Assembly (NCBI GenBank): GCA_001797815.1
Contig: MGQK01000056.1
Coordinates: forward strand, 43,278 to 50,670
Source of the DNA: Deltaproteobacteria bacterium RBG_13_61_14
Lineage (GTDB): Bacteria; RBG-13-61-14
DNA: 7,393 nt
Direction of reading: 5' to 3'
In this document: positions 4,423 through 7,393 of the stretch, piece by piece
Layout: every line of letters begins with the position of its first letter
Position numbering within the stretch: position 1 is the stretch's first letter
The notes under the pieces: model-generated
The model's database searches: none
Told to the model about the DNA's origin: nothing
What the model saw: only the letters and a program-made list of their open reading frames with translations
Translations under genes and position numbers: made by a program

Positions 4423-5688
4423 CTAGCCTCTCTCTTTGATCTTCGCCGGGCGGTAGCCGCTCTGGCGGAAGAGTGCGAGCGGGTCAATCGCCCCCCCATT
4501 GGAGAAACGGACGCGCTGCACGAGCGGAGTCACATCGGTCTCAAAGGCCTGCTTGAGGATTTGTTCGGCCATTACCGGATCGTTTTTCTCCTGGCAGCGA
4601 TGGAGCGCCGGCCGATTTACCAGGAGCGCCTTGCTGAAGGCCCGGAACAGCGCCTCCGTGCTCTGGATCAGGTCCTCGATCGGGTCCTTGAGGTTCATGC
4701 TCTGGTCGAGTAAAAAGGCGGGATGGAAATTCTTCACGGCCGGGTCCTGGGCCGCGTCCTGAAGCTCGTTCATGACCAGGAACAGCCGATAGGGGTTAAT
4801 GGAGCCGGCCGAGAGATCATCGTCGCCATATTGGGCGTCGTTGAAGTGAAACCCGCCCAGCTTCTTCTGCCGGATCAGGCGCGCCACCACCGCCTCCACG
4901 TTGGTGCCGGGCAGGTGGTGGCCCAGGTCCACCAGGCACAGCGCCTTGGGGCCCAGCGCCGAAGCGGCCAGGTAGGAAGCGCCCCAATCCGCGTTCACCG
5001 TGAAATAAAAGGCCGGCTCATAAGGTTTGTGCTCGAGGTAGAGCCGCCAGCCGCGGGGCAGGCCGGCGTAAATCTGTTCCAGGCTTTCCAGGTAGCGGTC
5101 AAAGGCCCGCCGGAAGTGCACCTGGCCCGGGTAGTTGCCGCCGTCCCCGATCCAGATCGAGAGCGCCCGGCTCCCCAGCTTCTTCCCGATCTCGATCACC
5201 TCCAGGTTATGCGCCACCGCCTGGCCGCGGACCGCGGGATCGGTGTGGCACAGGCTCCCGAACTTATAAGAGAGCTTCTGGCCGGGCTGGTCCTGGAAGG
5301 TGTTGGAGTTCATGGCATCAAAGCTTAAGCCCAGTTGCCGGGCGTAGGCCCGAAGCGCGGCCGGGTTGCCGGTCTGGTCCCAGGGGATGTGGAGCGAGAC
5401 CGTGGGATTCTGCCGGGTCAGGCGGTGGAGGGTGGCCGCGTCGTCGAGCTTCTCATAGAGATGGCGCGGCTCGCCTGGGAAGGGGAAGCGGCCGAAGCGG
5501 GTGCCGCCTGCGGCCAGGCCCCAGGAGGGGACCGCGACCACGAAGGGGCGGGCGGCCAGGAAGAGGCGCTGGGGGTTGGTCCCCCGTCGCTTCAGCTCGC
5601 GTTCGAAACCGGCCCAGCCCCGGTCCAGGGCCGGCTTCAGCCGGCGGTTGTGTCGCTCGATCAACTCCTCGGAAATCTCAAAACTCAT
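4423..5688 (-). CDS. rhaI: L-rhamnose isomerase, RhaI (Pseudomonas stutzeri-type) family
   Basis: 421 residues; a TIM-barrel metal-dependent isomerase converting L-rhamnose to L-rhamnulose, and in this family often other aldoses. Diagnostic motifs are HIPWD (100-104), WIGDGGNYPGQ (179-189), YLEHKPYEP (217-225), DLGHHLPGTN (254-263) and HFNDAQYGDDDL (281-292). Residues matching the known metal and substrate ligands of the P. stutzeri enzyme occur at nearly the same numbers: W179, E219, K221, D254, H257, H281, D289, D291 and D328. The active site therefore looks intact. The length is close to the roughly 430 residues usual for the family. I chose ATG 5688 because it overlaps the cytochrome c stop (ATGA), has AGGGGG 6 nt upstream, and starts where family homology should. 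The frame stays open for a further 87 codons upstream, but that part is a shadow of the cytochrome gene. No rhamnulokinase or aldolase gene is in the window, so a different natural aldose is possible. Confidence 0.9.
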   Translation of the reverse strand: MSFEISEELIERHNRRLKPALDRGWAGFERELKRRGTNPQRLFLAARPFVVAVPSWGLAAGGTRFGRFPFPGEPRHLYEKLDDAATLHRLTRQNPTVSLHIPWDQTGNPAALRAYARQLGLSFDAMNSNTFQDQPGQKLSYKFGSLCHTDPAVRGQAVAHNLEVIEIGKKLGSRALSIWIGDGGNYPGQVHFRRAFDRYLESLEQIYAGLPRGWRLYLEHKPYEPAFYFTVNADWGASYLAASALGPKALCLVDLGHHLPGTNVEAVVARLIRQKKLGGFHFNDAQYGDDDLSAGSINPYRLFLVMNELQDAAQDPAVKNFHPAFLLDQSMNLKDPIEDLIQSTEALFRAFSKALLVNRPALHRCQEKNDPVMAEQILKQAFETDVTPLVQRVRFSNGGAIDPLALFRQSGYRPAKIKERG

Positions 5689-6461
5689 GGCGTGCCCCCT
5701 GCTGGGATCGCGCTGGGCGGAAGGTCCAACTCCACTCCTTGCGCCTTCAACGATTGAATTTTTTCCAGATCGGCTTCTTGGAGCTCTCCCGGCCGCTTTG
5801 CCTCCGAAGCGATCACTCGCCGGCCGTGGTAATGGTGGCAGACCTGGCAGCCTTCCTCCAAGTGGCACTTGCAACAAGCCTTCATGGTGAAAAGCTGGCG
5901 AAAGGGCGTGTTGATGGTTCCCTCGCCTCGGCCATGGCAGGCCGGGCAATGGTAGCCCCGGTGGTCCCGGTGCGAATACAGCCGCCGGTCAATCACCGAG
6001 GCGTGGGTTTGCGGCCGGCCGATAAAGAACTTGGATTTCGGGTCTTGCTTCAACGGTTCGTGGCATTCGCCGCAGGCGCGGTCGGCCATGCGCGGCGCGA
6101 GTTCCCGGGTGTTGGCATGCTCGGCATGGCATTGGGTGCAGGCCAGGTCGAGGCGTTCGTGGAAGTTGTTGCGAATCAGCCTCTGGTGGCAATCCGGGCT
6201 GGCGCAGGCGGCGTTGTTGACGCCGGCGATCGGGTGATGGCAGACCCCGCAATTTTCCCGCAGGTGGTAATGGTCCACCGAAAGGGGCGTGCCCAGGAAG
6301 GCTTTCTGGTCGGCCCGGAAGAAATAGGACCCTGCCCAGGCCGAGAAGAGGATCCCGGTCACCGACAGGAAGCCAAGCGAGGACCCGAGGCGGTGGCCTC
6401 GGCTCAGCCGGATCTTGTCTTCTCCCGCAGGTCCCTGAATGCTGACTTGGTCCGAGGGCAT
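5685..6461 (-). CDS. Membrane-anchored multiheme (seven-heme) c-type cytochrome
   Basis: 258 residues. A short N-terminal tail is followed by one membrane helix (about 27-48, LGFLSVTGILFSAWAGSYFF), then a periplasmic heme domain. Heme-binding motifs are CGVCH (71), CTQCH (108), CGECH (130), CPACH (172), CCKCH (196) and CQVCH (205), plus a CX4CH variant, CASPDCH (86-92). That makes up to seven c-type hemes. Extra histidines (H64, H66, H101, H115, H153, H164, H167, H171, H210, H212) could be distal ligands for low-spin bis-His hemes. The arrangement resembles cytochrome c3/c7 and NapC/NrfH-like electron carriers. The C-terminal 35 residues lack hemes and end in a proline-rich tail. It starts 1 bp after the stop of the di-heme b-like gene and overlaps rhaI downstream. 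Inferred role: passing electrons between the membrane b hemes and a periplasmic partner. Direction unknown. Confidence 0.88.
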   Translation of the reverse strand: MPSDQVSIQGPAGEDKIRLSRGHRLGSSLGFLSVTGILFSAWAGSYFFRADQKAFLGTPLSVDHYHLRENCGVCHHPIAGVNNAACASPDCHQRLIRNNFHERLDLACTQCHAEHANTRELAPRMADRACGECHEPLKQDPKSKFFIGRPQTHASVIDRRLYSHRDHRGYHCPACHGRGEGTINTPFRQLFTMKACCKCHLEEGCQVCHHYHGRRVIASEAKRPGELQEADLEKIQSLKAQGVELDLPPSAIPAGGTP

Positions 6462-6462
6462 G

Positions 6463-7266
6463 TCAATACCACAAAACCGAGAGGATATGGGCCACCGAAA
6501 AAGTTACGAGGGCCACGGAGATTGGCACGTGGACATAGAGCCAGAGCCGGAGCCGACGCAGGAACTGGAGGTGCAGGTTCAGATCTTGGAAAAGGCTTTT
6601 CGCTTCTTCGATCAGTTTCAACGCCGCCTGGTAGTCATCGGCCTGTCCAAATTCAAACTGCGTTTCCAGGGGCGGCGCCTCTGGGAGGGCCTCCGGCTTT
6701 TGTCCCCGGGTGCGGTAAAGCGGGATGACCATGTCGTTGTAGAGGTCGAGGAAAGGCTTGCCCCGGCCGGAGCAGATTTCCGAGAGCTGGGCGTGGATCT
6801 CGCTCAGCCGGTCGGCCGTGACCGCGGGCAGCACCGGGGCCTTGAGCCGGCCGGCTTTGCGCGAGGGCTCCCGCAGGTAAATCACCCAGCCCACCAGACC
6901 GCTGACCACCTCCAGGAGCAAAAAGAGCAAGGCCAGGTTGGGCACCGTGGCATGGAAGCGGTAGCCCGAGTGGGCCACGATCAGGACCAGGGCCAGCGAT
7001 CCCAGGTAGATGTGGATCTCGAACCAGCGCTCGAGCGAGCCGATCCACCAGTTGAGATGGACCTTGCGCAGGGAGTAGAAAGCCGAGAGGACGATGGCGA
7101 GCGTGCCCGCGATTCCGAAAGCGAGACCCCAGGCGTCGCCGCCGGTGAGCGGCGGCCAGAAATAAAAGACCCGGTATTGGGCCAGCCAGATGACGAGCAG
7201 GCTCACCCAGGCAAAAGCCAAAGACCACCCGAGCCGCGGCGGGGCCGCCTGGGACCTGGCGCTCAT
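6463..7266 (-). CDS. Five-helix membrane protein, predicted di-heme b-type cytochrome subunit
   Basis: 267 residues from ATG 7266, which overlaps the upstream Fe-S gene stop (ATGA) and has GGAAG 7 nt before it. The frame can extend 39 codons further, but that stretch overlaps the Fe-S gene. Predicted helices lie at about 13-37, 47-65, 83-103, 109-131 and 243-265. Helices 3 and 5 each carry H-X13-H (H85/H99 and H246/H260), the spacing used by cytochrome b and ferric-reductase-like proteins to hold two stacked b hemes. Positive charges at 67-80, 132-142 and 237-240 put the N-terminus and the 111-residue loop between helices 4 and 5 in the cytoplasm. The pairs H85-H246 and H99-H260 would then form an inner and an outer heme. 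Neighbours are an Fe-S protein and a multiheme cytochrome c, which fits a trans-membrane electron conduit. I cannot assign a named family. Heme binding is inferred. Confidence 0.75.
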   Translation of the reverse strand: MSARSQAAPPRLGWSLAFAWVSLLVIWLAQYRVFYFWPPLTGGDAWGLAFGIAGTLAIVLSAFYSLRKVHLNWWIGSLERWFEIHIYLGSLALVLIVAHSGYRFHATVPNLALLFLLLEVVSGLVGWVIYLREPSRKAGRLKAPVLPAVTADRLSEIHAQLSEICSGRGKPFLDLYNDMVIPLYRTRGQKPEALPEAPPLETQFEFGQADDYQAALKLIEEAKSLFQDLNLHLQFLRRLRLWLYVHVPISVALVTFSVAHILSVLWY

Positions 7267-7393
7267 CGGTCGGCTTCCGCCCGGAACCGCTCGATCAGCT
7301 CTTCCGGCGCGAGCAGGCGGGCGGCCCCGGCCGGGCAGTTGTAAACGCAGGCCACCCGGGCAAAGTCCACGCACATGTCGCACTTGACCACTT
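7263..7393 (-). CDS. Iron-sulfur (4Fe-4S ferredoxin-type) protein, C-terminal end only
   Basis: 42 residues are visible, entering from the window edge and ending with TGA 7265-7263. The segment KCDMCVDFARVACVYNCPAG has the spacing CX2CX7CX3CP, a typical [4Fe-4S] ferredoxin-like binding unit, followed by a helix (APEELIERFRAEADR). The last cysteine followed by proline is usual in two-cluster electron carriers; its partner cluster, if any, lies outside the window. The TGA overlaps the ATG of the di-heme b-like gene, so the two are probably co-translated. Whether the full protein is a simple ferredoxin subunit or a larger oxidoreductase with this domain at its end cannot be told from here. No export signal can be seen, as the N-terminus is missing. 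Confidence 0.78.
   Translation of the reverse strand, partial: VVKCDMCVDFARVACVYNCPAGAARLLAPEELIERFRAEADR

Follow-up and report, generated by a model that had tools for sequence, protein, structure and literature searches.

Predicted inner-membrane electron conduit of the IMP (PCC3/PCC4-type) family with a cyclic-nucleotide-binding Fe-S subunit in Deltaproteobacteria bacterium RBG_13_61_14

The closest described relatives of the system reported here are the inner-membrane proteins (IMPs) of two porin-cytochrome complexes, PCC3 and PCC4, known as predictions (He et al. 2017, PMC5566968). These IMPs are ferric-reductase-like proteins of approximately 300 residues with five transmembrane (TM) helices, SGXXG on TM4 and WX3HX13H on both TM3 and TM5, and two b hemes were inferred for them. 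They are encoded beside multiheme c genes, an Fe-S (pfam13247) gene lies upstream of the IMP gene in PCC4 subgroup II, and PCC3/PCC4 were proposed to function in Fe(II) oxidation, that is, electron uptake. A stretch of 7,393 nucleotides of Deltaproteobacteria bacterium RBG_13_61_14 (contig MGQK01000056.1; "the window") carries a trio of tightly coupled genes, all on the minus strand, for an Fe-S subunit, a putative di-heme b-type membrane protein and a heptaheme cytochrome c:

7263..7393, minus strand: 3' end of the gene for the Fe-S subunit with cyclic-nucleotide-binding (cNMP) domains; the rest of the gene is outside the window
6463..7266, minus strand: IMP-family, predicted di-heme b membrane protein, 267 residues, five TM helices
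5685..6461, minus strand: periplasmic heptaheme cytochrome c, membrane-anchored, 258 residues

At the level of architecture, the reading of the trio as an electron conduit is well supported. The trio probably encodes a three-subunit inner-membrane conduit of the IMP (PCC3/PCC4-type) family in which electrons would pass from the Fe-S subunit through b hemes to the heptaheme cytochrome under the control of cNMP. An ATGA overlap joins the end of the Fe-S gene to the start of the membrane-protein gene, 1 nt separates the latter from the heptaheme gene, and the heptaheme stop overlaps the start of the next gene, again as ATGA. The first-pass annotation of this DNA, which had described three contiguous redox genes, was right in this respect, and the three genes form a conserved ordered set.

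Its sequence traits place the membrane subunit in the IMP family, which is known by computation only. Every listed IMP trait was found in it (five TM helices, SGXXG on TM4, two WX3HX13H motifs), and the Fe-S gene lies upstream of the IMP gene, as in PCC4 subgroup II. The first-pass annotation had regarded the conduit as undescribed and the membrane subunit as matching no complex that it could name. Neither statement is supported: the motifs of the protein are exactly those of the PCC3/PCC4 IMPs, and sets of Fe-S, IMP and cytochrome genes were proposed in 2017 (PMC5566968). The two annotated H-X13-H helices were located as H85-X13-H99 and H246-X13-H260, each with a Trp at position -4:

6970..7026, minus strand: WX3HX13H in TM3 (W81, H85, H99), invariant in the alignment
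6889..6903, minus strand: SGXXG in TM4 (S122-G126), both glycines invariant in the alignments
6544..6870, minus strand: cytoplasmic insert between TM4 and TM5, approximately residues 133-241, helical in the AlphaFold model; short IMPs are without it
6487..6543, minus strand: WX3HX13H in TM5 (W242, H246, H260), invariant in the alignments

When the protein was shuffled 200,000 times at the same composition, two WX3HX13H motifs occurred in 3 shuffles and two plain HX13H motifs in 2,795; the motif pair is thus not attributed to chance. All four histidines, as well as Y64, G123, G126 and W242, were invariant in 32 of 32 aligned homologues, so that the conservation of the histidines on which the earlier proposal depended was confirmed. 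Five TM helices were predicted by hydropathy and AlphaFold, the model placing helices at residues 11-36, 45-69, 78-99, 107-131 and 206-266, the last of which contains TM5. Judged by the distribution of positive charges, the N-terminus should be inside, as should the TM4-TM5 insert, and the C-terminus outside; by this predicted topology H85/H246 would therefore be close to the cytosolic face of the membrane and H99/H260 close to its periplasmic face. Two b hemes may be bound by the membrane subunit, the ligand histidines of which are present and invariant.

No Pfam (E up to 10), NCBIfam or PDB sequence match was obtained for the membrane protein. The gathering score of PF01794 was not reached, and no Pfam or NCBIfam profile match to NrfD, NarI or NapC was obtained. 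Among 28 homologues, 15 weakly matched the ferric reductase model PF01794 (best 1e-5), and many relatives gave weak matches to DUF4405, ferric reductase and cytochrome b561 models. A tblastn search with the window IMP (P0001) retrieved a gene of genome G011 with an E value of 3.5e-12, the neighbours of which encode 20-heme and 16-heme cytochromes and a 557-residue protein with a beta-barrel-like end. The direct tblastn relatives in general sit in PCC3-type clusters, where the IMP is accompanied by a 20-heme cytochrome, by another cytochrome with 10-31 motifs and by a protein of approximately 550 residues with a beta-barrel-like end; several clusters add a ferredoxin-type oxidoreductase gene.

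The whole Fe-S gene was recovered from the contig (L009:10541-11926, 461 residues), L009 being the 19 kb locus surrounding the window on contig C56 of the window's genome (G000, 132 contigs). Its product has two N-terminal cNMP-binding domains followed by a DmsB-like Fe-S domain; the cNMP domains had been missed by the first-pass annotation because they are outside the window. PF00027 matched two stretches of the protein with 158 bits (E 5.7e-47, above gathering). The phosphate-binding cassette residues are E105/R114 in the first domain (cNMP1) and E235/R244 in the second (cNMP2). Among 38 aligned Fe-S subunits, cNMP1 has GE with the phosphate-binding Glu in all 38 and the Arg in 36. The cluster motif named in the annotation was present:

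7332..7382, minus strand: CX2CX7CX3CP cluster motif, CDMCVDFARVACVYNCP, motif IV of the Fe-S domain, seen in the sequence

The cysteines of motif IV are conserved in 38/38 aligned Fe-S subunits. Motifs I, II and IV are present in the window protein, in which the position of motif III falls in a masked stretch, and all four occur in 37/37 relatives. PF13247 scored 38.8 bits in the relative P0004; the window protein, part of which is masked, scored 10.8 bits and stayed under the cut-off.

In the third subunit the annotated seven C..CH motifs behind one anchor were correct as to number and anchor but imprecise as to form, six being CX2CH and one CX4CH (CASPDCH, residue 86):

6321..6389, minus strand: single N-terminal membrane anchor, approximately residues 25-47, by hydropathy
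6237..6251, minus strand: heme motif 1, CGVCH
6186..6206, minus strand: heme motif 2, CASPDCH (CX4CH)
6126..6140, minus strand: heme motif 3, CTQCH
6060..6074, minus strand: heme motif 4, CGECH
5934..5948, minus strand: heme motif 5, CPACH
5862..5876, minus strand: heme motif 6, CCKCH
5835..5849, minus strand: heme motif 7, CQVCH

At most 3 CX2CH motifs were present in any shuffle of the heptaheme sequence. The subunit is homologous to the octaheme subunits of other trios.

Of 290 genomes drawn from across the domain, 34 were found to have IMP homologues. When named genomes were scanned with the Fe-S subunit as query, 24 proteins that combine cNMP and Fe-S parts were obtained. Genes for an IMP-type protein and a multiheme c protein lie next to 21 of them; the other three are all from Chloroflexi. 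In an independent 290-genome sample 8 of 10 such proteins adjoin an IMP. The trio occurs in Nitrospinota, Verrucomicrobiota, Acidobacteriota, Nitrospirota, Planctomycetota and Pseudomonadota (including Gallionella and Methylotenera), with its gene order conserved except at L114, where the IMP gene comes first; conservation of the genes as a set, Verrucomicrobiota and Planctomycetota included, was therefore borne out. One phylum, in which Nitrospinota are included on the evidence of the matching loci L047/L075, accounts for fifteen trio loci, and a single genome in it has as many as six IMP paralogues. The trio IMPs and one fused form make up one clade (support 98/90) apart from the PCC3 IMPs and the short IMPs, and the window IMP is a long basal branch inside it. 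At L089, L091, L108 (Chloroflexi), L193 and L195, proteins of approximately 480 residues with cNMP and Fe-S parts, thus with the same sensor/Fe-S module, were seen with no recognisable IMP or cytochrome gene next door.

The cytosolic module varies between lineages. It consists of the cNMP-FeS protein alone in the window and in Nitrospinota, while a TrxR-like flavoprotein is fused to cNMP and Fe-S parts in Gammaproteobacteria (L078), where the decaheme protein carries a Forkhead-associated (FHA)-like domain. A NuoE/F-like gene accompanies the cNMP-FeS gene in Acidobacteriota (L077), a FAD/NAD/2Fe-2S gene and a tetraheme gene were found in Pirellulaceae (L111), and a ferredoxin plus TrxR-like pyridine nucleotide oxidoreductase is fused to the IMP at L033 and L036. 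Single chains of Fe-S and IMP parts (L013, L034) and of cNMP, Fe-S and IMP parts (L086, Nitrospirota) were also identified. The fusions place the Fe-S domain at the cytosolic N-terminus of the IMP and hence imply direct contact between the two parts. In a Woeseiaceae locus (L082:9896-11869) a protein with an HbpS-like heme-degrading domain is encoded directly after the decaheme gene. At L038:1937-3151 (by eye) and L185, a response-regulator-like receiver fused to 2Fe-2S/4Fe-4S parts lies beside an IMP and a hexaheme cytochrome, and may represent another signalling input on the same conduit.

Nucleotide cyclases were surveyed in fetched flanks of up to 6 kb, with 59 loci encoding cNMP proteins as controls. 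Class III cyclases were found near 6/21 named trio loci versus 3/59 controls (Fisher p 0.0085, uncorrected for kinship, three of the six cyclases having seeded the profile), and FHA-cyclase genes are located near some trio loci. The window's own genome encodes four class III cyclases, all elsewhere. A separate conserved pair, a protein with an N-terminal TPR-like stretch and two cNMP domains beside a class III cyclase, was observed in this genome (L214, contig C73) and in both same-order genomes (L203, L205).

In the proposed mechanism, the cytosolic subunit would combine its two cNMP domains with a DmsB-like domain that would hold as many as four [4Fe-4S] clusters. Electrons would enter this subunit, the donor probably being reduced ferredoxin or one linked to NAD(P)H, pass to the inner b heme (H85/H246), then to the outer b heme (H99/H260), and from there to the membrane-anchored periplasmic heptaheme cytochrome, which would hand them to further cytochromes. 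The path would be opened or closed by cAMP or cGMP bound at the first cNMP domain. The swapped NAD(P)H and ferredoxin modules, together with the fusions, favour such a source, an outward flow and a route for which quinone would not be needed.

Several points weigh against this proposal. The window operon is without a flavin or NAD module, leaving no donor indicated, and no membrane subunit was detected in two genomes of the same order. The cNMP2 Arg is kept in only 28 of the 38 Fe-S subunits, no cyclase lies beside the window trio, and the excess of cyclases is uncorrected for kinship, four of the six cyclase-bearing trio loci being gammaproteobacterial. No biochemistry on any IMP was found in the literature examined. 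Foldseek of the AlphaFold model (pLDDT 79) returned nothing at E <= 0.001. A VIA structure comparison listed many helical bundles with ambiguous Z values, cytochrome b and the Streptococcus NADPH oxidase SpNOX being among these. The model aligned to SpNOX (8qt6) with Z 8.7 and a root-mean-square deviation of 2.8 A over 109 residues, a weak match of a kind that helical bundles may reach by chance.

The alternative that survives best, itself rather unlikely, is that the cNMP domains are structural only and belong to an ordinary constitutive Fe-S/b/c conduit. The cNMP-binding fold is retained without ligand binding in many proteins, the cNMP2 Arg is lost in 10/38 subunits, and Fe-S plus IMP pairs without cNMP domains occur at L038 and L208; however, the cassette Glu and Arg of cNMP1 are almost invariant, and cyclases are often adjacent to trio loci. 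An inward conduit, in which electrons from the periplasmic cytochrome would reach the Fe-S subunit by way of the b hemes and be used there for the reduction of ferredoxin or NAD(P)+, is quite doubtful. The parts are symmetric as to direction, Gallionella is among the relatives, and the Fe(II) oxidation proposed for PCC3/PCC4 (PMC5566968) runs this way, but low-potential carriers normally require an energy input, no ion-translocating subunit was seen in the operon, and many trio hosts are not known as iron oxidizers.

It is improbable that the membrane subunit is a quinone-reactive cytochrome b trading electrons with the quinone pool, with the Fe-S subunit as a side branch. Di-heme b proteins are often quinone-reactive, and the relatives' weak Pfam similarity to cytochrome b561 and ferric reductase, like the He et al. 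models of PCC3/PCC4 (PMC5566968), would agree with it; against this, Fe-S and NAD(P)H modules fused to the membrane subunit in relatives indicate a quinone-free route, and no conserved quinone-site motif was identified. A redox sensor relaying the periplasmic redox state through hemes and Fe-S clusters to cNMP/FHA domains that control signalling is highly unlikely, since the flavin/NAD(P)H modules and 7-20 hemes fit bulk electron flow and the trio is without a fused kinase or transcription output domain; in its favour, signalling domains recur (cNMP, the FHA-like domain of the L078 decaheme protein, nearby FHA-cyclases and the L038 receiver, by eye).

The cNMP-gated conduit is accordingly preferred for the window trio. 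Its extension to a widespread class of inner-membrane conduits is put forward tentatively and has somewhat less than an even chance of being correct. In this class cAMP or cGMP on the Fe-S subunit would switch the electron flow directly, a post-translational control of electron export, and some lineages would have cyclases and FHA domains dedicated to it. The conserved cNMP-binding Fe-S subunit is apparently a new, unreported element; a limited literature search, in which absence is no proof of novelty, found no publication joining cyclic nucleotide-binding and multiheme.

The gene following the trio (4423-5689, minus strand) encodes a TIM-barrel, sugar-isomerase-like protein (by eye). It is probably part of the trio operon because of the ATGA overlap with the cytochrome stop. 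It was considered as a part of the conduit and rejected as incidental: no link to electron transfer was seen, and it was not seen downstream in the relatives examined. The other neighbours in L009 appear unrelated (NUDIX, KdtA-like, heptosyltransferase-like and ABC transporter genes, named by eye). Among the L009 genes, inspected by eye over the 19 kb, no porin-like gene was recognised, and the locus has one multiheme c gene only, with no second cytochrome gene recognised. A separate cluster of the same genome (L155:4154-8653, contig C92) encodes a 456-residue porin-like protein, a 13-heme cytochrome and more multiheme proteins, and is a possible outer-membrane partner. Also observed, at L155:13507-15555, was a 682-residue protein with 16 CX2CH motifs and a NapC/NrfH-like N-terminal start.

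For many uncultured bacteria it is an open question by which route electrons get across the inner membrane to periplasmic and extracellular wires. The window trio is a minimal version of such a crossing, three genes without a porin, that is expressible and testable. If the cNMP domains gate the conduit, a second messenger would directly control a respiration-like export of electrons; to our knowledge such control has not been described so far.

Unlike PCC3/PCC4, the window locus is without a porin and an extracellular cytochrome and has a single multiheme c gene, and its Fe-S subunit has two cNMP domains, of which the main text of PMC5566968 makes no mention. The porin-less clusters of "other multiheme c + IMP + redox protein" in the same source (Supplementary Table 6) share with the trio a multiheme c, an IMP with two HX13H motifs and a redox gene, but their IMPs are described as mostly shorter and the cytochrome is given first. 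The Gallionellaceae cytochrome cluster 403, "Forkhead-associated protein" with 10 hemes, is listed without partners or function (PMC10734462, Table 1). It probably corresponds to the decaheme subunit in proteobacterial versions of the system; at L098 this subunit has an N-terminal part, a TM helix and ten heme motifs; the window heptaheme, in contrast, is without an FHA domain. Fe-S subunits of the DmsB/NrfC type have four Cys motifs in the same order as the trio relatives, but the trio subunit has two N-terminal cNMP domains and a heme b protein as its partner, rather than NrfD/DmsC or a molybdoenzyme. The NADPH oxidase/ferric reductase domain shares with the window protein two HX13H pairs in TM3 and TM5 and, as predicted here, a stack of two b hemes that connects a cytosolic donor with the outside. 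The window protein differs from it in having no Pfam match and five predicted helices, and in the proposed conduit an Fe-S donor would replace the FAD/NADPH domain and a multiheme c acceptor would replace O2 or Fe(III).

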